DNA of 64,000 nucleotides from Syntrophaceae bacterium (lineage in GTDB: Bacteria > Desulfobacterota > Syntrophia > Syntrophales > PHBD01): contig JABLXX010000005.1 of the NCBI GenBank assembly GCA_013177825.1, positions 248,001 to 312,000 on the forward strand, written 5' to 3'. Both the position numbers and the translations under genes were made by a program. Numbering within the stretch: position 1 is the stretch's first letter; the number at the start of each line of letters is the position of its first letter. The notes beneath the pieces were generated by a model, which worked only from the letters and a program-made list of their open reading frames with translations, was not told the DNA's origin and ran no database searches. Below are positions 3,191 through 62,825 of the stretch, piece after piece.

Positions 3191-4798
3191 CTACTTGCCT
3201 TTCACATCTTTGAAAACGTCCTGATACATCTTCCTCAGCTCCCGCTTGAGGATCTTCCCGGTGGGGCTCACGGGAAGCTCATGCCCCTTGATCAGGATGA
3301 ATTTCTTGGGGATTTTGTAACCGGCCATGCGGCTCCTGGCATATTCCAGCAACGCGGCTTCCGTTAACCCTTCGGCCTTTGGAACGATCACCGCGGTCAC
3401 GCCCTCCACCCAGTAGGGATGGGGAACGCCGAAGACGGCGCTCACCAGCACGTCGGGGTGGGTGTTGAGCACGTCCTCCACCTCCAGGCATGACACGTTC
3501 TCACCCCCCGTCTTGATCATGTCCTTCAGGCGGTCCACGAAGTAGTAGTTCCCGTCTTCGCCCAGGCGGCCCACGTCGCCCGTATGCAGCCAGCCGTTCC
3601 GAAGCGTATCCGCCGTGTTCTTTGCATCCTTGTAGTATTCGGTCATGACCGACGGGCTCCTGAGCACGATTTCTCCCACCTCCCCCGGCGCAACGTCCCG
3701 GTCGTGCAGGTCGACGATGCGGATTTCCGCATCCAGCAGGGGGCGGCCGATGATGTTTCCCGCCTCGGGAAGCTTCCCATCGGTGAACCAGGTGATGGTC
3801 CCGGTGATGTTGATCTCGGTCTGGCTCCAGTGAACCGCAAAGGTCGCCCCGGGGCAGAGATCCATCCACTTCCGCAGCACGTCCAGGGGCATGGCCCCGC
3901 CGAACCAGACGCATTTCTTCAGGGAGCTCAGGTCGTACTTCTCGACGGGAAAGGACAGCAGAGCGGCGAACAGGGTGGGCGGCCAGATCAGGCTCGTGAT
4001 TTTCTCTTTCTGAATGATCTCAAGGCATTCGACAGGATCGATCCCGTACGTATAGACGACTCCCGCGCCGATCTTCGCAAAGGCGACGGAGATGGAAGAG
4101 GCCCCGACGTGAAACAGGGGGATGTTCATCATGATCTTGTCGTGCGCCTCGATCCAGGGCCCCGCGGAGGTAAGAAAGCTGGCCGCCTGCGAAAAGTAGC
4201 TGCCGTTGGAAAGCAGGGCGCCCTTGGGCGCCGCCGTGGTGCCGCTGGTGTAAATGATCGAGGCCACGTCCTTCCCGTCGATGAGGACATCCGGCTCGGT
4301 GTCGGGATATTGCTCCGAGAAGAGTGTGTCCACGTCGATCCAACCCTCCGGCAACGCGATGCCCGCCAGGTTGATCAACCCGTATTTTTCCACCGTCTTC
4401 AGTTCGCCCATGATCGGCCGCACCGCATCCAGCAGCCCGCTCTCCACGAAGAACGCCTTGGCGTCGCAATGGTTGACCTGGTAGACGATCTCCGGGCCGC
4501 GCAGCAGGAAATTCACCGGCGCATACCAGATCCCCGATTTGAAGCAGGCCCACATGAGAATGGCCATCTGGTGGCAGTTCTGGGACAAAATGGCCAGGCA
4601 GTCGCCCTTCTTCAGGCCCATGTCCTGCAGGCCGTGACAGACGCGATTGGCCGCCGCATCCATCCGGGCATATGTAAAAACCCGGTCGCGAAACATGAAC
4701 GCGATTCTCTCGGGCGATCGTTTTGCCGTACGCTTCAGGAAGTCGCCCACGGCCTGCCGGTGCAAACGATTCTGACTGAGCTTGTCGTCCTCTTTCAT
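3191..4798 (-). CDS. AMP-dependent acyl-CoA ligase
   Basis: 535 residues with all ANL core motifs: IIYTSGTTAAPKGALLSN for phosphate binding, GWLHTGDVGRLGEDG and VDRLKDMIKTGGENV in the hinge region, and the C-terminal catalytic lysine in PVSPTGKILKREL. It activates a medium/long-chain or related carboxylate to its CoA thioester. The start has GGGAGGAGCCAG immediately upstream. It lies between an acyl-CoA dehydrogenase and a FadH-like reductase in the same direction. A 247-bp gap separates it from the dehydrogenase, and a weak -24/-12-like element in that gap could give it its own promoter. Confidence 0.9.
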   Translation of the reverse strand: MKEDDKLSQNRLHRQAVGDFLKRTAKRSPERIAFMFRDRVFTYARMDAAANRVCHGLQDMGLKKGDCLAILSQNCHQMAILMWACFKSGIWYAPVNFLLRGPEIVYQVNHCDAKAFFVESGLLDAVRPIMGELKTVEKYGLINLAGIALPEGWIDVDTLFSEQYPDTEPDVLIDGKDVASIIYTSGTTAAPKGALLSNGSYFSQAASFLTSAGPWIEAHDKIMMNIPLFHVGASSISVAFAKIGAGVVYTYGIDPVECLEIIQKEKITSLIWPPTLFAALLSFPVEKYDLSSLKKCVWFGGAMPLDVLRKWMDLCPGATFAVHWSQTEINITGTITWFTDGKLPEAGNIIGRPLLDAEIRIVDLHDRDVAPGEVGEIVLRSPSVMTEYYKDAKNTADTLRNGWLHTGDVGRLGEDGNYYFVDRLKDMIKTGGENVSCLEVEDVLNTHPDVLVSAVFGVPHPYWVEGVTAVIVPKAEGLTEAALLEYARSRMAGYKIPKKFILIKGHELPVSPTGKILKRELRKMYQDVFKDVKGK

Positions 4799-5045: not shown

Positions 5046-6182
5046 CTAGTACCCTTCCAGCCTGGCGATGATCTCGCACATCACCTCGTCCGCCCCCCCG
5101 CCGATGGAGAGAATCCGGCCGTCCCGGTAATACCGGGAGATCAGGGTCTCGTTCATGAAGCCCATGCCGCCGAACATCTGCAGGCACCCGTCGGCAACGC
5201 GCCGGAACAGCCGGCCGCCCACCAGTTTCCCCATGGAGACCTCCCGGGTGACATCGAAACCGGCCATCTTCATCCGGACGATGTGGTAGGTCAGGTGCTT
5301 CAGGCATTCCGCCTCCGTGACCCAGCCCACCAGCCTGTGCCGGAGGACTTGCCTGCTCAGGAGCGGCTTCCCGAAAACCATGCGCTGCCGGATGTAGTCC
5401 ACGGTCATGTCGATCATGTCCCGGACGCAGACATACGTTCCGGGGAGGGTCGCAAACCGCTCGTGCTGGAACTGCTTCATCTGGTAGATGAACCCCTCCC
5501 CCTCCTCGCCGATGCGGTTTTCCACCGGGATCCGGACATCATCGAAAAACAGCTCCGCCGTATCACTGCTCCTCAGGCCGAGCTTGTCGAGCTTCTTGCT
5601 GATGACAAAGCCCGGCAGGTTCGTCGGAACCACGAAAAGACCGAAGGAGTGATAGCCCGGCTCATCGGAGGTCTTCGCCAGCAGCGTCAGGAAGTCCGCC
5701 TGGGTGCCGTTGGTGATGTACGTTTTCGACCCGTTCAGCACGTAATGGTCGCCTTTTCTGGCCGCCCTGCTCGTAATGGCGAAGACGTCCGAACCGGCGC
5801 CGGGCTCCGTCACGGCAAGGGCCGTCACGACGTCCCCGGCGATGGCCGGTTTCAGGTACTTCTCCTTCAGCCAGGGACTCCCGAACATGTCGATGGACGG
5901 GGTGGCCAGGTGGGTCTGGACCACGATGGCGGTCGACACCCCCAGGCCCCGGATATGACCGAGTTCCTCCAGAAACACGGTGTCAAACCAGTAGTCGAGT
6001 CCCTGACCTCCATACTGCGGATCGTAGCGGATCCCCAGGAAACCCAGATCCCCCATTTTCTTCAGCAGGGGATGCAGCGGAACGCCCGACTCCTCCCATT
6101 CGTCCATGAACGGGTTGATCTCCCGGTCGACGAATCGTCGAACGGATTCCCGAAAAGCTTCATGCGTCTCGTTGAAGTACAT
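5046..6182 (-). CDS. Acyl-CoA dehydrogenase
   Basis: 378 residues, the usual length of the FAD-dependent acyl-CoA dehydrogenase family, which introduces an α,β double bond and passes electrons to ETF (no ETF genes are in this window). Signature stretches are visible: ALAVTEPGAGSD around residue 135 and MFGGMGFMNETLISRYYRD near the C-terminus. The place of the MCAD-type catalytic Glu is Gly (SIGGGADEVM), whereas FQHERFAT on the earlier helix supplies a Glu as in isovaleryl-CoA dehydrogenase, so the base is probably of that type. It lies 100 bp downstream of the DUF35 pair in the BKACE operon. Confidence 0.92.
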   Translation of the reverse strand: MYFNETHEAFRESVRRFVDREINPFMDEWEESGVPLHPLLKKMGDLGFLGIRYDPQYGGQGLDYWFDTVFLEELGHIRGLGVSTAIVVQTHLATPSIDMFGSPWLKEKYLKPAIAGDVVTALAVTEPGAGSDVFAITSRAARKGDHYVLNGSKTYITNGTQADFLTLLAKTSDEPGYHSFGLFVVPTNLPGFVISKKLDKLGLRSSDTAELFFDDVRIPVENRIGEEGEGFIYQMKQFQHERFATLPGTYVCVRDMIDMTVDYIRQRMVFGKPLLSRQVLRHRLVGWVTEAECLKHLTYHIVRMKMAGFDVTREVSMGKLVGGRLFRRVADGCLQMFGGMGFMNETLISRYYRDGRILSIGGGADEVMCEIIARLEGY

Positions 6183-6284: not shown

Positions 6285-6752
6285 TTACACGTCCACCGGC
6301 TCGAAACAGGAAAGGTCATGGATATCGGCATTCTTCTCCCCGCTCCACGCCGCCTTGACCCGCACCCCCGGCTTGAGTATCCCGCGGGCTTTCGTCGTGT
6401 CCGACCAGTCGATCCCCCCGAGGAAATGAATGAAATCGCAATCCGTTCCATCCAGGCGGATCAGCCCCAGGGCATAGGGAGGCTGCCTCACCTGCCCGAA
6501 ATGGCTCTTTTTGACCAGGGTCCACGATTTCAGCGTCCCTTCCTGCGAAACGGCCGTCCACTCGTCCAGATCGCCGAAACAATCAGGACAGAAAGACTTG
6601 GCCGGCACAAAGACCTTCCCGCAGGCCCCGCACCGGGTTCCGTATATTGTTTCCTCCTTCAGCCCGTCGAAAAACCGCGTCCAGGTGGCCCCCAGGGCCC
6701 AGCGATACGGGAGAACGACGGTATTGACGATGGTTCCATATTCCTTTGTCAT
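6285..6752 (-). CDS. DUF35 / Zn-ribbon OB-fold thiolase partner protein
   Basis: 155 residues: an N-terminal helix, a zinc ribbon (CGACGKVFVPAKSFCPDC, two CxxC pairs) and an OB-fold C-terminal half. In characterised systems such proteins bind a thiolase-fold partner and help position acyl-CoA: BbsA with BbsB in toluene degradation, the archaeal thiolase/HMGS complex, and ChsH2-Ltp2 in steroid side-chain cleavage. It is the second of two consecutive DUF35 genes downstream of two thiolase genes, so it very likely pairs with one of them. The ribosome-binding site AAAGGAGG precedes the start. Confidence 0.85.
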   Translation of the reverse strand: MTKEYGTIVNTVVLPYRWALGATWTRFFDGLKEETIYGTRCGACGKVFVPAKSFCPDCFGDLDEWTAVSQEGTLKSWTLVKKSHFGQVRQPPYALGLIRLDGTDCDFIHFLGGIDWSDTTKARGILKPGVRVKAAWSGEKNADIHDLSCFEPVDV

Positions 6753-6812: not shown

Positions 6813-7295
6813 CTATTCCGGGATGAGCTCGAAGTAATCGATATCGAAAATGTTTCCTTTCTTCTCCCTGCTCCAGACCACCCGGACCCGTCCCCCGGAT
6901 TTCACCCGTTTCCGGACCGTCTCGAAATCCGACAGGTCGAATCCGGCAATCCGGTGCTGGAGTCCCACGTCCGTTCCGTCCAGGTGCACCTGCACGGCGA
7001 TGAACGGCGGTTTCAGCGTCTGGCCGTAAAACATCAGGTTGGAGTAGCACCAGGTCTCGATTGTGCCCTGCTGCCCGACCTCCACCCATTCCTCGTTGTC
7101 TTCGAAGCACCGCGGGCAGAACGACCGGGGGGGGACAAAGACCCTGCTGCATTTCCCGCACCGGGTCCCCATGATCCTCTCTTCCTTCAGGTTCTCAAAA
7201 AAGCGGTGCCAGTTGCGCCCCATGGCCATCTCATAGGGAACGGTCACCTGGGCTTTCATTTCTCTGTATTTTTCCTTCGGTTTTTCATCCGCCAT
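6813..7295 (-). CDS. DUF35 / Zn-ribbon OB-fold thiolase partner protein
   Basis: 160 residues, paralogous to its downstream neighbour, with zinc-ribbon CGKCSRVFVPPRSFCPRC and an OB fold. I start it at MADEKPKEKY because AAGGAGG lies eight bases upstream; a longer reading from a TTG would include that ribosome-binding site. It follows the Cys-containing thiolase by about 55 bp. Having two different DUF35 subunits beside two different thiolases fits the two thiolases each having a dedicated partner. Confidence 0.85.
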   Translation of the reverse strand: MADEKPKEKYREMKAQVTVPYEMAMGRNWHRFFENLKEERIMGTRCGKCSRVFVPPRSFCPRCFEDNEEWVEVGQQGTIETWCYSNLMFYGQTLKPPFIAVQVHLDGTDVGLQHRIAGFDLSDFETVRKRVKSGGRVRVVWSREKKGNIFDIDYFELIPE

Positions 7296-7349: not shown

Positions 7350-8516
7350 CTAAAGCTTCGCCCCGACAATGGTCACCCCGTTGAACTGATCGATGCCGCC
7401 CATGGCGTGAGACAATGCCAGTTGGGCCCCCTCGATCTGCCGGGCACCGGCCTTGCCGGTCACCTGAAGCGCCGCCTCCGCCAGCCGGATCAGACCCGAG
7501 GCGCCGATCGGATTGGTGCACAACACCCCCCCCGACGGATCGCAGGGCAACTCGCCCGTCCTGTTGAATTTTCCCTTCAGGACGTATTCGGGGGCCTCAC
7601 CCCGGGGACAGAAGCCGAAGCACTCGTAAAAAATCATTTCCTGGTACGTGAACGGGTTGTAGACCTCCGCGACGTCCAGTTCCTTCATGGGATCCCTGAT
7701 TCCCGCCTGCTCGTAGGCATGCCGGGCCGCCTCGGTGGCACTCGGCCAGATCGACTTGTTGCTCTCCCCGTAGAAGAACTCCTCCCCCCGGAATCCAAGC
7801 CCCCGGATCCAGGCCTGTTTTCTGCCTATCTTCTTCGCCGCTTCCTCCGAGGCAAAAACGACCGCACAGGCCCCGTCCGAGGTGGGACACACGTCGAACA
7901 GGCGGACCGGGTAGGTGATGATGGGGGCGTTCTTCGCCTCGTCCATGCTGATCTTGATCTTGATATGGGCGTACGGATTCTCCAGGGCGCTGTCGTGATG
8001 CGTGACGGAAATGACCGCCGCCGCTTCGTGGGCCTTGTCTTCGGGGATGTTGAACCGGTGCATCCACTCCATGGCCTGCATCGTAAAAACCCCGGGGGCG
8101 CCCGCGGAAAAGGGTTTCAGGAACCAGGGATCGGCGACGGTGCTCATGGTGGCCTGGCCGTCCCCTTCGAACATCTTTTCCATCCCCACCACCAGGACAA
8201 GATCCGCCATTCCGGAAGCCACCCAGTAAAAACCGCAATGCGCGATGGACTGGCCCGTGCTTCCGCAGCTCTCCACCTTCAGCACGGGCTTCCCCACTTC
8301 GCAGAGCGCTTCCGCAAAATAGAGATGGGTATCGGAAATGCCCTCCATCATGGACGGCATCGTCCCCGAAACAACCCCTTCGATGTCCTTCGGCGTGATC
8401 CCCGCGTCTTCGAGGGCCAGTTTTACCGCTTCCCTGACCAGGTCCGGATAGCTGACGTCGTTTCGTCGCCCGTGTCTCGTCTGGCCTGTTCCGATAACCG
8501 CCACGGCTCTTCCCAT
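7350..8516 (-). CDS. Thiolase-family protein with nucleophilic Cys (SCPx/BbsB-like)
   Basis: 388 residues of thiolase fold. The nucleophilic cysteine is present at about residue 84 in VESCGSTGQS. The usual HDAF and GHPxGASG histidines are replaced: the corresponding stretches read VAEVYNPFT and CTNPIGASG. It therefore keeps acyl transfer to Cys but has an altered deprotonation site, seen in DUF35-associated thiolases. Start chosen at MGRAVAVIG (AGGAGG eight bases upstream), three codons inside a possible GTG start. It begins 12 bp after the Cys-less thiolase and precedes both DUF35 genes. Probable role: thiolytic cleavage of an unusual β-ketoacyl-CoA together with a DUF35 subunit. Confidence 0.88.
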   Translation of the reverse strand: MGRAVAVIGTGQTRHGRRNDVSYPDLVREAVKLALEDAGITPKDIEGVVSGTMPSMMEGISDTHLYFAEALCEVGKPVLKVESCGSTGQSIAHCGFYWVASGMADLVLVVGMEKMFEGDGQATMSTVADPWFLKPFSAGAPGVFTMQAMEWMHRFNIPEDKAHEAAAVISVTHHDSALENPYAHIKIKISMDEAKNAPIITYPVRLFDVCPTSDGACAVVFASEEAAKKIGRKQAWIRGLGFRGEEFFYGESNKSIWPSATEAARHAYEQAGIRDPMKELDVAEVYNPFTYQEMIFYECFGFCPRGEAPEYVLKGKFNRTGELPCDPSGGVLCTNPIGASGLIRLAEAALQVTGKAGARQIEGAQLALSHAMGGIDQFNGVTIVGAKL

Positions 8517-8528
8517 GTTCGTCACCTC

Positions 8529-9665
8529 CTACCCTTCCAGAATAACGACGGAATGGCATTGCCCGGCAAATCCGTGGGTTCCGTGGGCCAATGCCGTCCT
8601 GACTTTCTTGTCCACCTGGTGCTCCCCCGCCCGGCCCCGGATCTGCATGGCCGCTTCGATCACGCGGTACAGACCCCGCGACACGTAGGGATTCATGGCC
8701 AGCACACCCCCGGAGGGATTGACCGGGAAGGCCCCGTACATCTGCGTTTCACCGCTGTCGATGAGCCTGCCTCCTTCTCCATCCGGACAGAATCCCAGCT
8801 TCTCGCACCAGAGCAGTTCCTGAAACGCGTAGGGCTCGCAGATCTCAGCCAGGTCGATTTCCTTTCCCGGCTCGCGGATCCCCGCCATCCGGTAAGCCCT
8901 TTCCGCTGCGACGGTCAGTTGACCGTTCAGGAGATCCCTGTCTCCCAGGTTGAAATGGTCCATGGAGGTCCCGAATCCCTTGATCCAGACGGGCTTGTCC
9001 GTGAACTTTTCCGCCACCTCACCGGCCGCGAGCAGAACCGACGCCACTCCTTCCGATTTGGGGGCGCACTCCAGGGCCTTCAGCGGGTCGCTGACCGTTT
9101 CCGAATTCAGGACGTCCTCGACGGTGAGGCGCTTTTTCACATGGGCATGGGGATTGAAAAGGGCGTTCCCCAGGTTCTTCACGGCGACTTTGGCACACTG
9201 CTCCTCCGTAACGCCGAAGCGATGCATGTATTCCCGCATCTGGAAGGCCGCCGCCGTCGTCTCGTTGATCCCCAGCGGGCGCATATAGAAGGGATCGGCG
9301 AAAAATCCCGTCAGCGTGTCGTTGTCGGGATTTTCCGAGCCTTTGACAATGGAGGTGACCAGCACCGTGTCAAAATGCCCGGACAGAATGCGCATGGCGG
9401 CATAGATGAGGGCGAACATCGAGTCTTCGGCCCGCGTACCCTCGATCATGAAGGCGCCGGAACCGTCCCAGTCGACGGCATTGGCGCAGGACAGGCCGCT
9501 GTGAAAGATATCCGAGGAGGCGATCATGACGCATCCCACCTCACTTCTTTTCAGGCCGGCCTTGTCGAGAACCTCCTTGTTGATCCGGTACGTAAAATCC
9601 ATCAGGTTGTCCCCGGACTCCACACCGGAACTCTGTGCGAACCGGGTTAAGGCCACTTTTCGCAT
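8529..9665 (-). CDS. Thiolase-fold protein lacking the nucleophilic Cys
   Basis: 378 residues, clearly thiolase superfamily along its whole length (late motifs NPSGGVLAMNP and TALAHGTHGFAGQCHSVVILEG), but the segment where the active-site Cys should be reads MIEGTRAEDSMFAL and has none. Cys-less thiolase homologues paired with DUF35 subunits include the steroid aldolase Ltp2, so a retro-aldol lyase or a non-catalytic subunit is more likely than a thiolase. The start at MRKVALTRFA has AAGGAGG upstream; 37 upstream residues of open frame look unlike the family. The same Cys-less/Cys-containing pair recurs at 34818-37164. Confidence 0.82.
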   Translation of the reverse strand: MRKVALTRFAQSSGVESGDNLMDFTYRINKEVLDKAGLKRSEVGCVMIASSDIFHSGLSCANAVDWDGSGAFMIEGTRAEDSMFALIYAAMRILSGHFDTVLVTSIVKGSENPDNDTLTGFFADPFYMRPLGINETTAAAFQMREYMHRFGVTEEQCAKVAVKNLGNALFNPHAHVKKRLTVEDVLNSETVSDPLKALECAPKSEGVASVLLAAGEVAEKFTDKPVWIKGFGTSMDHFNLGDRDLLNGQLTVAAERAYRMAGIREPGKEIDLAEICEPYAFQELLWCEKLGFCPDGEGGRLIDSGETQMYGAFPVNPSGGVLAMNPYVSRGLYRVIEAAMQIRGRAGEHQVDKKVRTALAHGTHGFAGQCHSVVILEG

Positions 9666-9792: not shown

Positions 9793-10563
9793 TCATCCCT
9801 TGCCGCGGGTCTGGAAAAACAGCTTCACGGTCGCCTTCAACGCCTCCTTCTGCGTCATGACGGCCTGATGAGCCGCCTCCCACTCGAGAGCCGTCGCGAG
9901 GGACATCTCAAGGCCCGCATCCAGTCCCTCCTTGATCAGCGCCATGACGTCCGGGCACTTCCCGGCCAGCCTCCGGGCGAGGGCGTCCACGACGGCATCC
10001 AGTTCGGCCTCCGGCACGGCCCTGTAAATCAGGCCCATGCCTGCAGCCGCCCTGCCGTCGAAGACATCGCCGAGATAGGCCAGTTCCCTGGCCTTGGCCA
10101 GCCCCACGAGGCGCGTCAGAAAGTAGTTCCCCGCCGCATCGACAATGATGCCGATGTTGGAGAAATTTTCGCAAAAGACCGCGTCTTCGGCTGCGACGAC
10201 GAAATCGCACGCCAGGGCGAGGTTGGCGCCGCCGCCGATGGCTGCTCCGCGGACTTTTGCGATGACCGGCTGGGGAATCCCCCGCATGGACAGGATCAGG
10301 TCCCTGACCTTTCTCATCCCGTCCAGCCAGGCGGGCGCCGGATGCTCCTCCCGGAACAGGGTGTAATCGGCCCCCGACGAGAAATCACGGCCCATGCCTT
10401 CCATGACGACGACGTGGATGTTCCGGTCCCGGCCGATGTTCAGAAAGGCATCCCTCAACCCTTCCACGACTTCCAGGGACCAGGCGTTCTTGACGCGGGG
10501 TCTGTTGATCGTCACGGTGCAGATCGCATCCTGCGTCCGTACCAGAATTTCATTCTCGGTCAT
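9793..10563 (-). CDS. Crotonase-fold protein, atypical active site
   Basis: 256 residues of enoyl-CoA hydratase/isomerase fold with the oxyanion-hole stretch GAAIGGGANLALACD. Both glutamates that activate water in canonical hydratase are absent: the GGGCEL glutamate is Asn here, and the second stretch reads ENFSNIGIIVDAAGN instead of PE-x-LG-x-xPG. It is therefore probably not a simple hydratase and may be another crotonase reaction (isomerase, hydrolase, lyase). The start at MTENEILVR is preferred; an upstream ATG overlaps the BKACE stop (ATGATG) and would add 25 low-complexity residues. It is the second gene of the BKACE operon. Confidence 0.8.
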   Translation of the reverse strand: MTENEILVRTQDAICTVTINRPRVKNAWSLEVVEGLRDAFLNIGRDRNIHVVVMEGMGRDFSSGADYTLFREEHPAPAWLDGMRKVRDLILSMRGIPQPVIAKVRGAAIGGGANLALACDFVVAAEDAVFCENFSNIGIIVDAAGNYFLTRLVGLAKARELAYLGDVFDGRAAAGMGLIYRAVPEAELDAVVDALARRLAGKCPDVMALIKEGLDAGLEMSLATALEWEAAHQAVMTQKEALKATVKLFFQTRGKG

Positions 10564-25328: not shown

Positions 25329-26078
25329 TTACGGAAAAAACGACGGGGCCGCGATCTCCCTGACGGCACCGGACAGTCTCTCCGGCTTCACGACCACGAC
25401 GCCGATATCGTCAAGCCCTCGATCGATCCGGCGGGCAGACTCGCATATGCTCTCCATCATGTCTACCGGTGTTCCGCATTCCCTCATCAGGCCGCCGATG
25501 AATGCCGCCGTCGTCCGGCCGGAAGAGCGCGCCAGGGATGCCAGACCGTCGGAAGCGATCAGAAAAAGATCCTCCTCCCGGAACGACGCCTCTTCGGCCT
25601 GAAACAGGCTCGCCGTCCGGCCGACCAGGCAGTGGTTGGTCCGGCTGATCTGAGCGACTTCTCCCGTCGACGGCGTGAGCAGAAAGATCAGGCTGTCTCC
25701 CGCATGCAGGACGGCATACCGGTTGCCCTCTCCCAGAACCACGGCGGAGAACGTCGTGCCGTCATGGTAGGTCGTCTCGCGAACCAGGAGGTTGGTGGCG
25801 GACACCAGGTCCGTGAAGCCGCTGTCGAGGAACGACCAGGCCTTCCCCGGTTTCATCAGATCGGCCATCCCCGCCCGGAACCGCTTCAGGAACGCGGAAG
25901 ACGCCTCCGGGTTTCGTGCCGGACCGTCGGCAACGGCCACGATGCGCCTTTGCCCGTCAACCAGGACCGCGTCTCCGATCCCTTCCCAGTCCGCCTTGTC
26001 CGATCCGGGAATCAGGAGAACCGACAGGATGCCGGGCACGTCGTATTTCACCGGTCCGTTGCCGTTGCGTCCCGCCAT
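25329..26078 (-). CDS. PP2C-like (PPM) phosphatase domain protein
   Basis: 249 residues. The metal-dependent PP2C pattern is recognisable: GDAVLVDG then VAVADGPA near the N-terminus, AVLHAGDSLIFLL in the middle, LFLIASDGLASLA, and a final DDIGVVVV. Such proteins dephosphorylate Ser/Thr phosphoproteins, including anti-sigma antagonists. The start codon shares its A with the TAA stop of the upstream FadH-like gene (TAATG), which points to translational coupling. It sits directly before an NtrC-type regulator gene, so it may belong to that signalling unit; the substrate is unknown. No membrane segments. Confidence 0.7.
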   Translation of the reverse strand: MAGRNGNGPVKYDVPGILSVLLIPGSDKADWEGIGDAVLVDGQRRIVAVADGPARNPEASSAFLKRFRAGMADLMKPGKAWSFLDSGFTDLVSATNLLVRETTYHDGTTFSAVVLGEGNRYAVLHAGDSLIFLLTPSTGEVAQISRTNHCLVGRTASLFQAEEASFREEDLFLIASDGLASLARSSGRTTAAFIGGLMRECGTPVDMMESICESARRIDRGLDDIGVVVVKPERLSGAVREIAAPSFFP

Positions 26079-30582: not shown

Positions 30583-32253
30583 TCACGGCTTCTGTTTCAT
30601 GGCCATTTCCCTGAGTTCACGGCGAAGAATCTTGCCCACTGCCGACTTGGGCAGGCCTTCGACGATTTCGTAGATTTTCGGGACTTTATAGGCAGCCAGT
30701 TTCTGCCGGCAGAACTGGTCCAGCTCCGCCGACGTGACGATTTCACCGGGACGGGGAACCACGTACGCCTTCACGGTCTCCCCCCGGTAGTCGTGGGGAA
30801 CTCCGACGGTGCAGGCCTCCAGCACTTTCGGATGCTGGTACAGGACTTCGTCGATGTCCCGCGGATAGATGTTGTATCCCCCCGCGATGATCATGTCTTT
30901 CTTGCGATCCACGATGTAGAGGAAGCCGTCTTCGTCCATCCGGCCGATGTCCCCCGTGTAGAACCAGCCGTCCCGCAGGGACTGCGCCGTCTCTTCCGGC
31001 ATGTCGTAATAGCCCTTGCACTGCTGCGGCCCCTTGAAGAGGATTTCCCCGGATTCTCCGACGGGCATGTCGACGGTGCCCGTATCCAGATCGACGATCC
31101 GGATATCCGTGTTGGGCAGCGGAACCCCGACGCTCCCCGGTTTCAGCTTGCCGCGCCAGGGCGTCATGTGGGTGATGGACGTCGACTCCGTCATCCCGTA
31201 CCCCTCCACGATCGAAGCCCCCGTGGCATCCTGAAGCGCCTGGATGGTCTCCACGGAGAGCGGCGCCGCCCCGGAGAAGAAGCCCTTGATGAAGGACAGG
31301 TCCGCCTTCTTGAACTCCGGCAGAGCCATGACGCCCACATAGATCGTCGGGACCGCCAGGAAGATCGACGGTTTGTATTTCAGCGTCATCTCCATCACGG
31401 CCTTGGGCTCCGGCCTCGGGACCAGAATGGCCGTCCATCCCTTGTAGATGCTCAGGTTCATCACCAGGTTGAAACCGGCCATGTGGAAAAAGGGAAAGAT
31501 GGCCAGCTCGCTATCCAGTCCGTCTTTCAGATCGAAAAACCAGGCCCCGAGGATCTGATTGATGGACGAAATGTTGCGATGGGTGATGATCGCGCCCTTG
31601 GAAACACCCGTGGTCCCGCCGGTATAGGGAATCAGGGCCAGATCGTCCATTTTGGGACTCTCCAGGGTCACGCCCGGCGTGGCATTCTTCATCAGATCCA
31701 GGAACGGGAGGAAACCGTCCATCCTGTCGTCGGAGCGGTACATTCCCTTCTTGACGAACGGAAAAAGCTGCTTCGCCGGGAAAGGAAGATAATCGCTGAT
31801 GTGGGCGGTGATGACCGTCTTGAGAGGCGTTTTCGGCTTCAACGCCATCACGCGCGGGACAATCAGATCGAGGACAACGGCGGCCGTCGCGCCGGAGAGG
31901 TTGACCTGATGAACGATCTCCTCTTCCGTGTAAAGAGGATTGCAGGGAACGGCGACGGCACCGGCCCGCCAGATTCCGTAATAGGCAATCACGATCTGGG
32001 GGATGTTGGGCAGGAGCAGGGCAACCCGGTCTCCCGGCCCGACACCGATTTTTCTCAATGATTTTGCAAAAGTCGTCGCCAACGCATCGAGTTCGGAAAA
32101 GGAAATCCTTTTCCCCATGAAGATGAGGGCGTCCCTCCGGGGAAAACGCCGGGCCGTGCGCGAGAGATATTCCGGCATCGTCAGATCCTCGAAGATCACT
32201 TCCCGTGGGACGCCCTGCATATACTCCTTGTGCCAAAGACGCTCTTCCATCAT
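30583..32253 (-). CDS. Long-chain acyl-CoA ligase
   Basis: 556 residues with IPYTGGTTGVSKGAIITH, GWFYTGDIGRMDEDG, VDRKKDMIIAGGYNI and the catalytic lysine in KSAVGKILRREL. FadD-like. It follows a very similar ligase gene after only 10 bp, suggesting tandem duplication followed by divergence in substrate range. Confidence 0.93.
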   Translation of the reverse strand: MMEERLWHKEYMQGVPREVIFEDLTMPEYLSRTARRFPRRDALIFMGKRISFSELDALATTFAKSLRKIGVGPGDRVALLLPNIPQIVIAYYGIWRAGAVAVPCNPLYTEEEIVHQVNLSGATAAVVLDLIVPRVMALKPKTPLKTVITAHISDYLPFPAKQLFPFVKKGMYRSDDRMDGFLPFLDLMKNATPGVTLESPKMDDLALIPYTGGTTGVSKGAIITHRNISSINQILGAWFFDLKDGLDSELAIFPFFHMAGFNLVMNLSIYKGWTAILVPRPEPKAVMEMTLKYKPSIFLAVPTIYVGVMALPEFKKADLSFIKGFFSGAAPLSVETIQALQDATGASIVEGYGMTESTSITHMTPWRGKLKPGSVGVPLPNTDIRIVDLDTGTVDMPVGESGEILFKGPQQCKGYYDMPEETAQSLRDGWFYTGDIGRMDEDGFLYIVDRKKDMIIAGGYNIYPRDIDEVLYQHPKVLEACTVGVPHDYRGETVKAYVVPRPGEIVTSAELDQFCRQKLAAYKVPKIYEIVEGLPKSAVGKILRRELREMAMKQKP

Positions 32254-32263: not shown

Positions 32264-33967
32264 TCAATTTGCGGCCGCTGCCGTCTTCTCGGCTCCCTGC
32301 GAAGCGTTGCTCTTCCGCTTCATCTCCATGTCCCTGAGCTCCCGCCGCAGGATCTTGCCGACGGCGCTCTTCGGCATCTCGCTGATGAACGCCACCTGCC
32401 TCGGAACCTTGTACGGGCTGAGCTTCTCCCGACAGAAGGCGATGACCTCCTCCGCCGTTACGGTTTCACCCGGTTTCAGCACGACATAGGCCTTGACGGT
32501 CTCCCCCCGGTAGTCATCCGGGACGCCGATGGTGCAGGCCTCCAGGATCTTCGGGTGCTCGTAGAGAACTTCGTCGACCTCCTTGGGATAGACATTGAAG
32601 CCGCCGGTGATGATCACGTCCTTCTTCCGGTCTACGATGCTGAGGAAGCCGTCCTCGTCCACGACGCCGATATCGCCCGTGTACATCCAGCCGTCCCGGA
32701 GGACGTTGGCCGTCTCGTCGGGATTCTTGAGGTATTCCTTCATCACCTGGGGGCCTTTCAGGCAGATCTCTCCGGACTCGCCGATCCCCATCTCCCGTGT
32801 TCCCGAATCCACGTCGACGATCTTCATGTCCGTACTCGGGAAGGGGATCCCGACGGTGCCCACCCGGATGGGCTTGCGCCAGGGTGTACCGGTCACGATC
32901 CCGGCCTCGGTCATCCCGTACAGCTCGAGCATCGTGGACCCGGTCAATTCCTTGAGCTGATTGATGATCTCGATGGGAAGCGGCGCGGCTCCGGAGAAAA
33001 ACCCCTTGATGAAGGAAACGTCCGAATTCCGGAACTTCTTCTCCCGGAGAAGCGCCGTGTAGATCGTTGGGACGGCGCCGATGAAATTCGGCTTCCCGCT
33101 CCGGATGGCATCCGCCAGAAGGGGCGGCTCCGGCCTGGGGATGAGGACGTTTGTCAGCTTCATGCAGAGGCACAGGTGAGAACAGAAATGGCCGGCGATG
33201 TGGAAGGTCGGGAAGATGAACAGCAGACGATCCCCGGGCTCGATGTCGTACATGTGGGCCGCAAGCTGCTGCACGTTCGTGGACAGGCCGGCATGGGTGT
33301 GGACCACCCCCTTGCTGACGCCCGTGGTCCCGCCGGAATACATCACGACGGCCGTTTCCTCCCAGCGGGCCGCGTTTTTCACGGGCGTGCCCGGCGCCTT
33401 TTCGATCAGGCTCAGGAACTCGTGCATTCCCTGCTCGGACGGGATCTTCCGGAACATGTCCTTCTTGAGAATGGGAAAGAGCTGCTTTTTCGGGAAGGGC
33501 AGGTAGTCGCTGATGTGACAGGCGATGATGTCTTTCAGCCGGGTGGCGGCCCGGATCCTCTCGATCTTGGGCAGCACGAGGTCCAGGGTGAGCGCCATCT
33601 TCGACTCGGAATTGGAGATCTGGTACTCCAGCTCCCGGTCCGTGTAGAGAGGGTTCAGCATGACGGGAATCGCCCCCAGCCTCATGACGGCCAGGTTGGC
33701 GATGAGGACCTGGGGGATGTTGGGAAGCAGGATGGCCATCCTGTCCCCGCGCCGGAGGCCGAGGCCGGTCAGGGCGTTGGCGAAACGATTCACCAGGCCG
33801 TCGAACTCCTCGAAGGACAGGCTCTTCCCCATGTAGTAAATGGCCGGCAGTTTCGGATATTGTTTGGCGTCGTCGGCCAGTATCTCCGGCATGGTCTTCT
33901 TCTGGACCTTGATCTCGGGAGGTACGCTGGGATGGTTCTGCTTGTGCCAGACTCTTTGAAACGACAT
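32264..33967 (-). CDS. Long-chain acyl-CoA ligase
   Basis: 567 residues with VMYSGGTTGVSKGVVHTH, GWMYTGDIGVVDEDG, VDRKKDVIITGGFNV and KSAVGKILRREL. It is closely related to the next gene. The start at MSFQRVWHKQ has GAAAGGAG upstream; an ATG five codons earlier overlaps that site. It is the first gene of operon C. Confidence 0.93.
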   Translation of the reverse strand: MSFQRVWHKQNHPSVPPEIKVQKKTMPEILADDAKQYPKLPAIYYMGKSLSFEEFDGLVNRFANALTGLGLRRGDRMAILLPNIPQVLIANLAVMRLGAIPVMLNPLYTDRELEYQISNSESKMALTLDLVLPKIERIRAATRLKDIIACHISDYLPFPKKQLFPILKKDMFRKIPSEQGMHEFLSLIEKAPGTPVKNAARWEETAVVMYSGGTTGVSKGVVHTHAGLSTNVQQLAAHMYDIEPGDRLLFIFPTFHIAGHFCSHLCLCMKLTNVLIPRPEPPLLADAIRSGKPNFIGAVPTIYTALLREKKFRNSDVSFIKGFFSGAAPLPIEIINQLKELTGSTMLELYGMTEAGIVTGTPWRKPIRVGTVGIPFPSTDMKIVDVDSGTREMGIGESGEICLKGPQVMKEYLKNPDETANVLRDGWMYTGDIGVVDEDGFLSIVDRKKDVIITGGFNVYPKEVDEVLYEHPKILEACTIGVPDDYRGETVKAYVVLKPGETVTAEEVIAFCREKLSPYKVPRQVAFISEMPKSAVGKILRRELRDMEMKRKSNASQGAEKTAAAAN

Positions 33968-34314
33968 GATATCTCCTTTCATGGCGAAGATTGAGATATC
34001 GAATCATGCGTGGCGACAGGTTTCGCGATGCTCACGACAGGATCACGACCCCGGGGATGGAGAAGCGTTCCGCTCATGGGAACGCCTTTGACAAAATTCG
34101 GATCTTTACCGGGGTTACGATCAGGCATCGGGACATGTTCGCTCGAACCAACCGTCAGAACCTGTTCATGCTTATTCGTTGAATCTCATGAGTAGAAGAA
34201 CGAAAATGATACCTGTGATTACAGGCCCTCCCCGCGATGTTCCGATCCCGTCCGGGGTCGTCCTCCGCTCGGAGGAGCCCCGGACGGGGCAAGGGTCGTT
34301 GACGGCAATCCGGA
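33968..34314. other. 347-bp intergenic stretch upstream of operon C
   Basis: It should contain the operon C promoter. I looked for a -24/-12 element on the minus strand and found none with correct spacing. It contains the hairpin at 34247-34288 and no credible gene. Confidence 0.5.
34247..34288 (-). terminator. Large hairpin after operon D
   Basis: CCCGTCCGGGG (34247-34257) pairs with CCCCGGACGGG (34278-34288), and inner TCCTCC/GGAGGA extends the stem. It is 27 bp past the stop of the last DUF35 gene. There is no U-run, so Rho-assisted termination or 3'-end protection is likely. Confidence 0.5.
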
Positions 34315-34797
34315 TCACAGCACGGCGAAGTGCTTGATGTCCATCAGGTTGCCCGTTCTTTTTTCCTCAAAGACGGCTTTGACGCGAGCGCCTACTTTCA
34401 CCTTCTCCGGATCGGTGCTGTCCAGGAAGTGAGTCAGGCAGGTATCCGCGCCGTCCAGTTTCACAAAGGCCCAGGTGTACGGAACGGGGCGCTGTATTCC
34501 CGTGCTGGGGTCCACGAACCCGAACTGGACGATCGTGCAGACGTAAACGGTCCCCTCGTCCGAAACGGGAATGATATCGTCCAGCGTCAGCCCCTTGAAG
34601 CAATGACCGCAGACCGGCCGCGGGGGAACATATACCCGCTGGCACCCGGGACACTTGATACCGACGATCTTCCTTTTGTCCCTGAGTTGCTGGAGAAAAT
34701 AAGAGCCGTGCTTTCCGACGCTCCAGTTGAAAGGCTGGCTGGCTTCGCCCGAAGAGATGGAAAGAAGTTCCATTTCTTCCTGCTTTTTTTCGTTCAT
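34315..34797 (-). CDS. DUF35 / Zn-ribbon OB-fold thiolase partner protein
   Basis: 160 residues: zinc ribbon CPGCQRVYVPPRPVCGHC followed by an OB fold (VYVCTIVQFGFVDPST). It is the last gene of operon D, 20 bp after the Cys-containing thiolase gene, with GGGAGGAGG before the start. It most likely forms a complex with that thiolase, as BbsA does with BbsB. Confidence 0.85.
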   Translation of the reverse strand: MNEKKQEEMELLSISSGEASQPFNWSVGKHGSYFLQQLRDKRKIVGIKCPGCQRVYVPPRPVCGHCFKGLTLDDIIPVSDEGTVYVCTIVQFGFVDPSTGIQRPVPYTWAFVKLDGADTCLTHFLDSTDPEKVKVGARVKAVFEEKRTGNLMDIKHFAVL

Positions 34798-34817
34798 GAC
34801 CTCCTCCCGATAGGTAA

Positions 34818-36014
34818 TTACGCTGGCTTCTTCTTTCCCAGAAGCATGATGTCACCCCAGTAGCAGCCGCCGAAGCCCGTGGCGAAGGCGAGATTGACGT
34901 CCCCGCCCTTGACCTGGCGGGCGCCCGCCCTGCCCATGACCTGCAGTGCCGCCTCGCCGACCCGGATCAGGGCCGTCGCCCCGATGGCATTGGAAGACAT
35001 GACGCCGCCGGACGGATTGATCGGAAGCTCGCCGTCCATGTCGGTGACCCCGTCCCAGAGGAGCCTGGGGCCCTCGCCATAGGCGCAGAAGCCGATGTCT
35101 TCGATCCACTTCAAGCCCGCATAGGAGTACGGAAGGTACAGTTCGCAGACGTCGATTTCCTTCAGGGGCTCCTTGACGCCGGCCTTCTTGAAGACCGCCT
35201 TCGAGGCCTCGGCGATGGTGGTGTTGCGATCCATGTCCACGTCACCGGCATAGACGAAATTGTGCCGGTTCGCCGTAGCGTGAACCCAGGCCGGGACAGG
35301 GGCGATCTTCTCCGCCTTCCCTTCCGCGGCAAAGATGACCGCCGCGGCTCCGTCGGTCCGGGGGCACATGTCGCTCATCCGGAGCGGATAGGCGAGCATG
35401 GCGTTCTGCTCCGAGCCGACGATCAGGTCGACCAGCTTCTCGGGCGGGATCCCTTTCATCCATTCCTGGTGAAGGTGCGCATAGGGGTTGTTCAGCGCAT
35501 GGAGCCGCTCCCGGACGGCCACCCGCGCCCCGTCGCGCTCGGTGGCCCCATAGTTGTGCATGTATTTGCTGGCCTCGATGGCCAGACCGGCGACGGCGCC
35601 GCCGAGGGTCGGCCTTTCCCAGACCGGATGAAAGGCGGTGATGATGGCGCCGGTCGTATCCGATTCGGAATTCTTTTCCCAGCCGATCGCCAGGACCCTG
35701 TCGAACATGCCCGATGCAACGTGATAATAGGCGCACATGGCGACGGTCGTTCCCGTCGTTCCTCCCGTGCAAACCTTGATGACCGGCTTCATCACGGCGC
35801 CGGATCCTTCCGCGGACCACATGTCGACGTAGTTGATCCCCTCGAAGTGATCCATGTTGCCGATGACGATGGCGTCGATATCCCGAATGGTCAGTTCCGC
35901 ATCCGCGAGCGCGGTGACGACGGCCTCGTTGATCAGTTCCACGCCGTTGACGTCTTTCCGGGAACTTCGCTGATAGGTCTGACCAAAACCGACAATGGCT
36001 ACCCGTTTGCCCAT
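34818..36014 (-). CDS. Thiolase-family protein with nucleophilic Cys
   Basis: 398 residues. Cys82 in IKVCTGGTTGTT is the nucleophile position. Later motifs are altered as in its counterpart at 7350-8516: CELYLPYSYAG for HDAF and SSNAIGATALIR for GHPxGATG. The start at MGKRVAIVGFG has AAGGAGGAA upstream; an open extension of 25 residues overlaps the previous gene and is not thiolase-like. It is separated by 13 bp from the Cys-less thiolase gene. Confidence 0.87.
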   Translation of the reverse strand: MGKRVAIVGFGQTYQRSSRKDVNGVELINEAVVTALADAELTIRDIDAIVIGNMDHFEGINYVDMWSAEGSGAVMKPVIKVCTGGTTGTTVAMCAYYHVASGMFDRVLAIGWEKNSESDTTGAIITAFHPVWERPTLGGAVAGLAIEASKYMHNYGATERDGARVAVRERLHALNNPYAHLHQEWMKGIPPEKLVDLIVGSEQNAMLAYPLRMSDMCPRTDGAAAVIFAAEGKAEKIAPVPAWVHATANRHNFVYAGDVDMDRNTTIAEASKAVFKKAGVKEPLKEIDVCELYLPYSYAGLKWIEDIGFCAYGEGPRLLWDGVTDMDGELPINPSGGVMSSNAIGATALIRVGEAALQVMGRAGARQVKGGDVNLAFATGFGGCYWGDIMLLGKKKPA

Positions 36015-36027
36015 AAATAGTTCCTCC

Positions 36028-37164
36028 TTACGCTCCCACGACATACACGCAGTGAGCCTGGCCACAGGGACCGTTGATCCCGTGAGCAAGTGCCGTCTTT
36101 GCTCCCTTCACCTGCCGCTTTCCCGCCTCGCCTCTGACCTGAAGGGTTGCCTCGATCAGACGCAGCATTCCGGCCACGAATACCGGGTGGCTGGAAATGA
36201 CGCCCCCGGACGGATTGACCGGCAGCTCGCCCTTCATTCCCGTGGCGTTCTCCCGGATGAGTTCGTATCCCTTTCCCTCGGGAGCAAACCCCAGCCCCTC
36301 GTACCACATGAGTTCCATGTAGGAGTAAGCGTCATAGACCTCCGCCACGTCCAGATCCTTGAGCGGATTCTTGATGCCGGCCATCTTGTAGGCCTTCTTC
36401 GCCGCCTCTTTCAGGGCCCTGGACTTGGCCAGGTCGCGGTAGCCCAGCGTGAAGGCGTCAGAGCAGTGCGCTACGCCCTTGATCCAGACGGGGTCCTTCT
36501 TGAAACGCTTCAGCCCTTTTTTGTTGGACAGGACCATCGCCGCGGCTCCGTCGCCGATGGGCGAGCAGTCCAGGAGTTTCAGCGGCTCGGCGATCTTCCG
36601 GGAGGCCATGACGTCCCCGACGGTGATCTTCATCGGAAGCTGGGCGTAGGGATTGCTTTTCGCGTTGCCGTGATTCTTGACGGAAACGCGGGCAAAGTCC
36701 TCTTCGGTCGCCCCGCTCATGGTCATGTAGGACCGGGCCTGCAGGGCAGCGGCCGACGTCGCGTCGATCCCCAGGCCCCGCTGGTAGATGGGGTCGAACA
36801 TGGCGTTCGTAATGAGGTTCATGATGCTTTCGGACCCCTTCATATGGGAAACGACCAGCGTCGTATCGAACGAGCCGGAGAGAATGCGCATCATGCCGTA
36901 AAGGGCGCCGAACGTCCCGTCCCCCTCCACCGTGGAGACGTCCTTCCCCCAGGAGCCGGCCGCCTCCTGAACCGCCATGGACGAGATGGTCCGGCCGTCC
37001 CAGAAGTCGTTGGACACGGTGACTACGTTGTCGATGTCGCCGACCTCCGCGCCGGCATCGGCCAGCGCCCTGGAGGCCGCTTCAAACACCATTTCCTCGA
37101 ACGTATCGATCTTGCTGCGGGTGCAGGCAGTCTGACCCACACCGACAATTGCGATTTTGCTCAT
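36028..37164 (-). CDS. Thiolase-fold protein lacking the nucleophilic Cys
   Basis: 378 residues, same length as the counterpart at 8529-9665. The nucleophile segment reads VEGDGTFGALYGMMR with no cysteine, while the fold signatures NPSGGVISSHPV and TALAHGINGPCGQAHCVYVVGA are kept. Possible aldolase (Ltp2-like) or structural partner of the adjacent thiolase. It begins 17 bp after the upstream DUF35 gene. Confidence 0.82.
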   Translation of the reverse strand: MSKIAIVGVGQTACTRSKIDTFEEMVFEAASRALADAGAEVGDIDNVVTVSNDFWDGRTISSMAVQEAAGSWGKDVSTVEGDGTFGALYGMMRILSGSFDTTLVVSHMKGSESIMNLITNAMFDPIYQRGLGIDATSAAALQARSYMTMSGATEEDFARVSVKNHGNAKSNPYAQLPMKITVGDVMASRKIAEPLKLLDCSPIGDGAAAMVLSNKKGLKRFKKDPVWIKGVAHCSDAFTLGYRDLAKSRALKEAAKKAYKMAGIKNPLKDLDVAEVYDAYSYMELMWYEGLGFAPEGKGYELIRENATGMKGELPVNPSGGVISSHPVFVAGMLRLIEATLQVRGEAGKRQVKGAKTALAHGINGPCGQAHCVYVVGA

Positions 37165-37181
37165 ATCTCCTCCATGACTCC

Positions 37182-37640
37182 CTATGCCGGCGTAAAGTGT
37201 TTGATATCGGCAATCGTGCCTTCACGCTGCTCGGCAAAGACCGCCTTGACCTTCATGCCCGTTTTCAGCTTCGCAAAGTCCGTATCGTCGATCAGATGAA
37301 GAATGGCGCCGTCGGCCCCATCGAGTTTGATGAGCCCGTAGGCCAGCGGAGCCTTCCGCGGCTGCATCTCGTGGCTGTAGTGAACCACTGTGAAGGATTC
37401 CAGAACTCCTTTGTCGCTCACCTTGACCCATTCTTCCGTCGGGACGAAGCACTCGCCGCACGATTTCACAGGGGGAACATAAACCCGTTTGCACCCGGGG
37501 CACCGGGTGCCCCAGATTTCCTTCTTATCCCGGATGGCGACCAGAAAACGGCTGCCCGTTTTCCCGACGTTCCAGAGATAGGGGACCTTGATGCGGCCCG
37601 TATAAACCATGTTCTCAACTTTATCTTTCCAGTCGGTCAT
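37182..37640 (-). CDS. DUF35 / Zn-ribbon OB-fold thiolase partner protein
   Basis: 152 residues with zinc ribbon CPGCKRVYVPPVKSCGEC and an OB fold (LESFTVVHYSHEM). It is directly upstream of the Cys-less thiolase gene, so the gene order DUF35, Cys-less thiolase, Cys-thiolase, DUF35 suggests two cognate pairs. Confidence 0.85.
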   Translation of the reverse strand: MTDWKDKVENMVYTGRIKVPYLWNVGKTGSRFLVAIRDKKEIWGTRCPGCKRVYVPPVKSCGECFVPTEEWVKVSDKGVLESFTVVHYSHEMQPRKAPLAYGLIKLDGADGAILHLIDDTDFAKLKTGMKVKAVFAEQREGTIADIKHFTPA

Positions 37641-37775
37641 ACAAAACCTCCATCCTGCGGCCGGGCTTCGGTTCGCCGGAACCTGCCCGGCCGTGTCTCC
37701 TGGGTATGAACTTGGCGCCCGCGAATCCGTACGATGGCACCGGGTCCGCGAAGACGCGCCTTCACCGCATGACGG

Positions 37776-38738
37776 TCACTTCTTGGGCAGACCGAGCATC
37801 TCCCGGGCCTGGGCGACCGTCGCCACCTCGCGGTTCATGATCTCGGCCATCTGCTTGACCCGCGTCACGAGCTGGGCATTGCTCTTCACTTTCTCGCCCT
37901 TCTTGAAATACAGGTTGTCCTCCATGCCAACGCGGACGTGGCCGCCCAGCATGATGCCCATGGCGTTCATGGGAATCTGGAAGCTCCCCACGCCGATCAC
38001 GGCAAACATGGAGTCGGGGGGCATTTCGTTGATGAAGGACAGGACATTGGCGGGGGTCGGGTAGGAGGACGTCTGGAACCCCATGACGAACTGGATCATG
38101 TATGGAGTATCGATGCTGCCCTCCCGGATCAGGTCCTGCAGCACCCAGTACTGCCCCGGATGGTAGATCTCCACTTCCGGTTTGATTCCCTTCTCCTTCA
38201 TCGTCTTGGCATATAGATTGACATCGGTGTAAGAGCAGGGGATGCAGGCGTCGAACACAAAGCCGTCTCTGGGATTGGCAATGGGGGGCTTCCGGTCTTT
38301 CAGGGGCATCTTCAGCATGAAGGGCCCCAGGTTCAGACTCGCCATGTCCGGGGGAGTGGAGGCGTACAGGCAGCACATCCTCTGCTCCGTCGTCAGCCAG
38401 GGCCCGCCGCCCGTCGTGTTGTTGATGATGATGTCGGGGCAGCGCTCACGGATCAGTTTGTTGATCCGCGCATAATCCTCGGCGTTGGACGAGGTCATCG
38501 AAAGATTATCCGGCACCCGGGCGTGGATGTGAACGGAGACGGCTCCGGCCTTGTATGCCTCGTAGACCTGGTCCGCCTGCTCTTCCGCCGTCTCCGGCAG
38601 GTTCATGTTGAATTCCTTGCCCTGGACGCCACCGGTAATGGCACAGGTGATCATCATCGGCGGGAAATTTCCCGTCACGTTCCTGGTCATCCACTCGTAC
38701 GGATTTCGATAATCCCAGATGTAATCCTCCTTCTTCAT
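37776..38738 (-). CDS. BKACE-family β-keto acid cleavage enzyme (DUF849)
   Basis: 320 residues, very similar along its whole length to 10635-11597. Zinc ligands are the two His in VHIHAR and the Glu in VRVGMEDN. The expected reaction is β-keto acid + acetyl-CoA to acetoacetate + acyl-CoA. It is the first gene of operon D, about 85 bp downstream of a sigma-54 promoter, as its paralogue is. Differences cluster in short stretches, so the two may share the same substrate class. Confidence 0.88.
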   Translation of the reverse strand: MKKEDYIWDYRNPYEWMTRNVTGNFPPMMITCAITGGVQGKEFNMNLPETAEEQADQVYEAYKAGAVSVHIHARVPDNLSMTSSNAEDYARINKLIRERCPDIIINNTTGGGPWLTTEQRMCCLYASTPPDMASLNLGPFMLKMPLKDRKPPIANPRDGFVFDACIPCSYTDVNLYAKTMKEKGIKPEVEIYHPGQYWVLQDLIREGSIDTPYMIQFVMGFQTSSYPTPANVLSFINEMPPDSMFAVIGVGSFQIPMNAMGIMLGGHVRVGMEDNLYFKKGEKVKSNAQLVTRVKQMAEIMNREVATVAQAREMLGLPKK

Positions 38739-51747: not shown

Positions 51748-51834
51748 AGTCATTCTCCTTTTCTGCAAAATGCGTGCTGCAAGCGTTCTGTTATATTCTT
51801 CGGACGGCCCATCCCGAGGACAGGCGCATCCTTG

Positions 51835-57859: not shown

Positions 57860-57935
57860 TGGCGTCCCCACAGGGAGTCGAACCCTGGTTACCGGCGTGA
57901 AAGGCCGGTGTCCTAGGCCACTAGACGATGGGGAC
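57860..57935 (-). tRNA. tRNA-Glu (anticodon UUC)
   Basis: 76 nt including an encoded CCA. The acceptor stem is GTCCCCA/TGGGGAC, the T arm has GGTTCGACTCC, and the anticodon stem-loop CCGGC-CTTTCAC-GCCGG gives anticodon TTC, reading GAA and GAG. Confidence 0.96.
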
Positions 57936-59890: not shown

Positions 59891-59918
59891 CCCTCATCAT
59901 AAGCCGAGCAGGTGCGAC

Positions 59919-60437: not shown

Positions 60438-60448
60438 GGTTTAAAACC

Positions 60449-62803: not shown

Positions 62804-62825
62804 CTGCAGTTCATGCCGGGATGCT

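Follow-up and report, generated by a model that had tools for sequence, protein, structure and literature searches.

In a 64,000-nucleotide stretch of a Syntrophaceae draft genome (contig JABLXX010000005.1, positions 248,001 to 312,000; hereafter the window), two minus-strand gene sets, at 38738-34315 (copy 2) and 11597-6285 (copy 1), each combine a BKACE (DUF849) gene with two adjacent thiolase-fold genes, here called A and B, and with two genes for DUF35 proteins. This gene set and its linkage to BKACE are firm and not a matter of chance. From the gene set, the loss of thiolase residues from A and B, their kinship with the actinobacterial pair Ltp3/Ltp4, the statistical linkage to BKACE and the occurrence of DUF35-BKACE fusion proteins, we infer complex formation, retro-aldol chemistry, an order of steps and a type of substrate. 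The whole explanation, that A, B and DUF35 form an aldol-lyase of the Ltp3/Ltp4 kind and that BKACE would act on its product, we hold to be evenly balanced between right and wrong.

Catalytic residues and kinship of the thiolase-fold pair

Residue columns in A and B were set by using phmmer and MAFFT against BbsB, archaeal acetoacetyl-CoA thiolase (AACT) and SCP2-thiolase. The nucleophile column holds Cys in these three references, Gly in all A examined and never Cys in the B examined. The sequence-only reading had called B a Cys-less thiolase, which is borne out, and A a Cys-thiolase, which is contradicted: A of copy 2 (A2) has Gly at the canonical column, YLPY replacing HDCF and Asn replacing the His of GHP, and most class 2 relatives have Thr where copy 2 has its Cys. 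In A of copy 1 (A1), a Cys stands one residue before the canonical column and the motif is YNPF. Among the sequences examined, the HDCF/HDAF position reads Y-x-P-F/Y (Y-N-P-F, Y-L-P-Y etc.) in nearly all A and Y-D-A-Y/F or C/T-E-P-Y in most B, and the GHP His is replaced by Asn in A. A canonical thiolase is thus ruled out by the residues (no nucleophilic Cys, no HDCF and, in A, no GHP His), and the pair lacks the nucleophilic Cys, HDCF and GHP motifs that mark BbsAB and SCP2-thiolase. Modelling with AlphaFold (mean pLDDT: 68.5 for A, 78.3 for B) confirmed the SCP2-thiolase fold and nothing beyond.

The sequence-only reading implied a true thiolase like BbsAB (benzoylsuccinyl-CoA thiolase), in which the "Cys" subunit and one DUF35 protein would thiolyse a bulky 2-substituted beta-ketoacyl-CoA, the Cys-less subunit being structural. 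DUF35 plus a thiolase fold is indeed the BbsAB plan, also found in anaerobes; 7pxp, 6hsp and 6esq are among the best Foldseek matches of both A and B; and the conserved Cys of A1 lies only one position ahead of the canonical one. However, equivalog scores were far under the cut-offs for BbsB (102-153 bits; cut-off: 750) and BbsA (at most 27 bits; cut-off: 250), Gly occupies the nucleophile column, the HDCF and GHP patterns are gone, and Thr takes the place of the copy 2 Cys in most class 2 relatives. BbsB itself retains Cys, HDAF and GHP, is a single thiolase subunit and has no BKACE. We regard the thiolase explanation as the least probable of those weighed here.

In the aldolase CtSal, Gly likewise occupies the nucleophile site, and the Tyr at the first position of its YDCY motif acts as base (PMC12329534); the A subunit retains Tyr at that motif position. 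The residue pattern favours an aldolase without proving one (the Ltp2 motif was taken from PMC12329534). Ltp2-ChsH2 and Sal-Shy resemble the window cassettes in a thiolase fold devoid of the nucleophilic Cys, a DUF35 partner and an adjoining hydratase; they differ in having one thiolase-fold protein instead of two, DUF35 fused to MaoC where some relatives of the cassettes have it fused to BKACE, and steroid substrates. The zinc ribbon and OB fold of DUF35 and of the ChsH2 C-terminal part are present in the window proteins, with four Cys in all four.

Phylogenetically, A and B form a clade with pairs from Tsukamurella and S. clavuligerus, apart from BbsB, SCP2-thiolase and AACT (SH-aLRT: 98; B clade: 100; A clade: 74), as expected of kin of PRK08313 and PRK07937, and the A tree and the B tree mirror each other. 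Actinobacterial replicons carry A homologues at ~40% identity. The gene order in Tsukamurella and S. clavuligerus starts with a protein of 309-339 aa that contains a pair of DUF35 OB domains and continues with B and then A; B of both exceeds the NCBIfam cut-off for PRK07937 and A of Tsukamurella that for PRK08313, and further genes of the Tsukamurella segment encode a P450, a steroid thiolase and an F420-dependent oxidoreductase. The M. tuberculosis genes for an F420-dependent oxidoreductase (Rv3520c), for a conserved protein (Rv3521), for Ltp4 (Rv3522) and for Ltp3 (Rv3523) are numbered consecutively (PMC6429209). By gene order and family names, the Tsukamurella set may be equated with Rv3521-ltp4-ltp3. 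Ltp3 and Ltp4, which the literature describes as aldol-lyases, are required when the sterol side chain is branched at C24 (PMC6273163, PMC4761994). The window cassettes share with Ltp3/Ltp4 and Rv3521 two adjacent thiolase-fold genes, two DUF35 domains, the same loss of thiolase residues and one clade; they differ in having DUF35 as two genes, an added BKACE (partly fused in relatives) and an anaerobic Syntrophales host. We consider it probable that A, B and DUF35 form an aldol-lyase-like enzyme of the Ltp3/Ltp4 kind, with predicted retro-aldol activity. The sequence-only reading knew of no described pathway for such a set. Our literature search yielded no paper that links BKACE to DUF35/thiolase-fold sets, so this stands for the full cassette; the dual DUF35, dual thiolase-fold set alone is not new, being of the Rv3521/ltp4/ltp3 type.

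Linkage and fusion of BKACE to the cassette

The BKACE enzymes are identified by family profile and motifs: H70 and H72 (the His-x-His metal site), R269, E273 and D274 are invariant in A3 and were aligned with 2y7d. The family converts a beta-keto acid and acetyl-CoA to an acyl-CoA and acetoacetate (PMC6365646). Known members share the family profile and the metal and catalytic motifs, whereas the window BKACEs fall below every equivalog cut-off (score/cut-off in bits: Kce, 229/382; 3,5-dioxohexanoate, 189/430; 3-oxoadipate, 184/350) and have DUF35, A and B as partners. A window BKACE is 99% identical to that of the metagenome-assembled genome (MAG) HGW-Deltaproteobacteria-19; among the other named relatives are Syntrophaceae and Smithellaceae MAGs.

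The co-occurrence survey that the sequence-only reading had proposed came out in its favour. A profile search with B matched 95 of 149 genomes from the class, every one of them in the same order, the weaker matches including A subunits and other thiolases. Neighbourhoods were picked by B alone and comprised 103 B genes from 44 genomes of that order. A is adjacent on the same strand for 102 of these genes, at least one DUF35 is near 101 and at least two are near 65. A BKACE lies ≤6 kb from 57 of the 103, where 1.31 would be expected from BKACE density, a comparison among related genomes whose Poisson value is not to be taken for a probability. There are 39 instances of the five-gene set, spread over 27 of these genomes, although many contigs end early, and the cassette also occurs in an Actinomycetota MAG (L019), a Zymogenaceae MAG (L015) and other classes of the phylum.

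Four BKACE-bearing architectures were seen: BKACE-(enoyl-CoA hydratase or MaoC)-B-A-DUF35(-DUF35) (I); BKACE-DUF35-B-A-DUF35-ligase (II); BKACE-acyl-CoA dehydrogenase-B-A-DUF35-DUF35 (III); and B-A-(SCP2 protein)-DUF35-BKACE-ligase (IV), whose SCP2-containing protein has a weak DUF35 match and is not an HMG-CoA synthase. Architecture IV includes ten proteins of 480-481 aa in which DUF35 (zinc ribbon: ~44-70; OB: 79-143) and BKACE (198-477) share one stop-free chain. Two further fusions occur in genomes of other classes (G344, G411), and in unfused relatives (L031, L165, L166) DUF35 lies immediately upstream of BKACE. The DUF35 part of the fusions (L128:6936-8375) has lost the fourth zinc-ribbon Cys (CDKD), whereas unfused L031 has all four. 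Since it is to DUF35 that the thiolase-fold proteins bind in Ltp2-ChsH2, Sal-Shy, BbsAB and the archaeal thiolase/HMG-CoA synthase complex (PMC12329534), the fusion would put BKACE physically at the A/B complex. A 1106-aa frame holding B in L030 was rejected as a fusion: its extension has no domain and is overlapped by an enoyl-CoA hydratase frame.

BKACE may instead belong to a plain acyl-CoA catabolism neighbourhood, serving general salvage of acetoacetate or other beta-keto acids uncoupled from A and B. In keeping with this, no A/B is in reach for 8 of the 13 BKACE genes of this genome or for most of 20 relatives from outside the order. The excess over the expected 1.31 argues against it, as do the DUF35-BKACE fusion and the three deeply separated clades, with long, fully supported stems in a quick tree built without bootstrap, from which the cassette BKACEs come; because of this separation the association of BKACE with A/B probably arose more than once. 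We judge the uncoupled explanation rather unlikely and hold that BKACE probably works in the same step sequence as A, B and DUF35. The earlier proposal that the genes form one functional system is thereby upheld, by recurrence in other taxa and in no fewer than 27 genomes of this order and by a fusion that links the parts physically.

Gene layout in the window and the genome

All five genes predicted from sequence for copy 2 (BKACE, DUF35, Cys-less B, a second thiolase fold A and DUF35, in this order) are present with Pfam support. The intergenic gaps are 135, 17, 13 and 20 bp, and a GGAGG-type ribosome site precedes each gene. Beyond them follow two acyl-CoA ligases, a nitronate monooxygenase-like flavoprotein, an enoyl-CoA hydratase and an OYE-type reductase; a counterpart of the first ligase also lies downstream of architecture II cassettes. 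Copy 1 runs BKACE, enoyl-CoA hydratase, B, A, DUF35 and DUF35, then acyl-CoA dehydrogenase, ligase and OYE-type reductase; a MaoC hydratase holds the enoyl-CoA hydratase position in L025 and L026.

Coordinates of the two cassettes and adjoining genes in the window (Pfam cut-offs: BKACE, 24.8 bits; DUF35 OB domain, 27.1 bits; PF22691 is Thiolase_C_1)
Feature	Coordinates	Strand	Support
BKACE (DUF849), copy 2, 320 aa	37776..38738	-	PF05853 279.5 bits, 1-274/274
DUF35 2b (zinc ribbon + OB fold), 152 aa, C4 zinc ribbon	37182..37640	-	PF01796 55.8, PF12172 29.1 bits
Subunit B2, Cys-less, Ltp4/PRK07937-like, 378 aa	36028..37164	-	PF22691 138.7 bits; B clade; residues
Subunit A2, Ltp3/PRK08313-like, 398 aa	34818..36014	-	PF22691 99.5 bits; residues
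DUF35 2a, 160 aa, C4 zinc ribbon	34315..34797	-	PF01796 49.1 bits
Acyl-CoA ligase, 332 bp gap downstream of copy 2	32264..33982	-	ligase homology, neighbourhood
Second acyl-CoA ligase, 10 bp beyond first	30583..32253	-	
BKACE, copy 1, 320 aa	10635..11597	-	PF05853 277.4 bits, 1-274/274
Enoyl-CoA hydratase between BKACE and B1	9793..10563	-	PF00378 180.5 bits
Thiolase-fold subunit B1	8529..9665	-	PF22691 109.5 bits; tree
Thiolase-fold subunit A1	7350..8525	-	PF22691 123.2 bits
DUF35 1b, start probably ATG at 7295	6813..7295	-	weak NCBIfam BbsA match 25.6 bits; sequence; PF01796 at C5:254873-255088
DUF35 1a	6285..6752	-	PF01796 44.1 bits
Acyl-CoA dehydrogenase downstream of copy 1	5046..6182	-	homology, neighbourhood
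Acyl-CoA ligase downstream of copy 1	3191..4798	-	homology, neighbourhood

The claim that one cassette is repeated held for the kind of genes only: the set at 11597-6285 is related and has an enoyl-CoA hydratase inserted, but amino acid identity between the copies is 82.5% for BKACE against 42.1% for B, 39.8% for A and 32-41% for the DUF35 proteins, which rules out simple duplication of one cassette. A1/B1 and A2/B2 occupy different subclades of the tree, both of them well supported and both shared with relatives from other families. Given these identities, A/B appear to be two old subclasses between which BKACE alone was recently duplicated or moved; the two sets are alike in kind, not in descent.

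The 4.24-Mb draft genome has 13 BKACE, 17 Thiolase_C_1 and 15 DUF35 matches, its BKACE count being the highest of those listed for the 149 genomes searched from the class. It holds seven sites with A/B and DUF35, with BKACE ≤6 kb away at four and somewhat further at a fifth (C11). Elsewhere, two different A/B cassettes lie ~7-9 kb apart in many genomes (L081, L083, L088, L110, L114, L117, L118, L121-L126, L128, L129 and L163), as though the cell combined the two reactions. Genes of ~290 aa without a Pfam match (L029:7805-8686 and the like), present in 15 of 108 neighbourhoods, follow DUF35 in some cassettes and are weakly similar to a PP2C/SpoIIE-like protein at 25329-26078 of the window. The neighbour label "PPase" denotes a weak similarity only.

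Farther along the window, a 904-aa chain (47694-50408, minus strand) joins an HMG-CoA synthase-like part, a DUF35 OB domain, a short-chain dehydrogenase/reductase (SDR) and SCP2, and adjoins a thiolase with normal catalytic motifs (46466-47674); it looks like the archaeal thiolase/HMG-CoA synthase/DUF35 plan fused to a multifunctional beta-oxidation enzyme. The SDR and SCP2-type protein at 50479-51750 (minus strand) resembles its C-terminal half, and the two are likely a tandem duplication. At 56000-64000, G+C drops from ~60% to 49-54%, which suggests a different origin for the right end of the window.

Proposed cleavage and thioester transfer

According to a review, the Ltp3/Ltp4 route comprises carboxylation of the branch, hydration and cleavage by the heteromeric aldol-lyase Ltp3-Ltp4, after which the carboxylate must be thioesterified (PMC6678751). 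For a methyl branch the product would by deduction be R-CO-CH2-COO-, formally a beta-keto acid, and the BKACE reaction would provide the required thioesterification without ATP. In the scheme that we propose, an acyl-CoA ligase would activate a branched acid, and acyl-CoA dehydrogenase and hydratase (enoyl-CoA hydratase or MaoC) would yield a beta-hydroxyacyl-CoA with a carboxymethyl-type beta branch (3-hydroxy-3-R-glutaryl-CoA type). Genes for enzymes of these three kinds, with a hydratase ≤8 kb away in 50 of 108 B neighbourhoods, lie close to the cassettes and point to these supply steps. The heteromeric, DUF35-scaffolded A/B enzyme would cleave this by retro-aldol reaction to acetyl- or propionyl-CoA and free R-CO-CH2-COO-, from which BKACE, kept close via DUF35, would form R-CO-SCoA and acetoacetate at the expense of acetyl-CoA. 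Re-thioesterifying the chain in this way would cost no ATP, as would befit a syntrophic anaerobe, and CoA-transferases, homologues of which are near 21 of 108 B genes, could recycle the acetoacetate. That BKACE takes the direct product of the aldol-lyase has, in our estimate, slightly less than an even chance.

Several observations weigh against the scheme. The NCBIfam cut-offs for PRK08313 (514) and PRK07937 (419) exceed the scores of the window A (358-380 bits) and B (170-189 bits), and the Ltp3/Ltp4 chemistry is itself based on genetics in the literature that we read. About 45% of the A/B cassettes are without BKACE ≤6 kb, in part through contig ends but also in 18 of 39 complete ones, and a hydratase is not near every cassette. 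No biotin-dependent carboxylase was found inside the cassette, and none of the B neighbourhoods examined has a carboxyltransferase homologue, the three homologues of this genome lying far from the cassettes; the second carboxylate would thus have to be made elsewhere or already belong to the substrate, as with dicarboxylic acids or after ring cleavage, unless the scheme is wrong.

Ketone carboxylases occur in anaerobes, and A/B/DUF35 could be an aldol-lyase with BKACE acting after another step, such as on the beta-keto acid from a carboxylated methyl ketone, which retro-aldol cleavage of a beta-methyl beta-hydroxyacyl-CoA would release. This route would agree with the lack of an acyl-CoA carboxylase near the cassettes; however, no ketone carboxylase was noticed among the annotated neighbours, where no profile search was aimed at them, and we deem it unlikely. 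A biosynthetic complex that forms C-C bonds (PhlACB or a condensation like that of thiolase/HMG-CoA synthase), with BKACE in reverse supplying beta-keto acids, would fit the fold group and DUF35 shared with PhlC and the archaeal complex and the HMG-CoA synthase-like fusion nearby at 47694-50408. Against it, the neighbours (ligases, acyl-CoA dehydrogenases, hydratases, enoate reductases) are typical of catabolism, and it seems to us distinctly improbable.

Returning to the aldol-lyase and BKACE scheme, we suggest tentatively, and with less confidence than its parts, that a two-subunit thiolase-fold aldol-lyase and a BKACE share one DUF35 scaffold, across which a free beta-keto acid passes from the former to the latter and regains its thioester without ATP; this would be a previously undescribed assembly and a general module for shortening branched acids in syntrophic anaerobes. 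This offers a functional hypothesis for many genes of uncultured syntrophs annotated as "thiolase domain-containing protein", "OB-fold protein" or BKACE, and makes a fused DUF35-BKACE protein, such as that at G102:C15:54935-56374, a ready handle on complex formation. BKACE would be a candidate for the thioesterification that follows cleavage of the Ltp3/Ltp4 type, and branched chains may be shortened without ATP cost.

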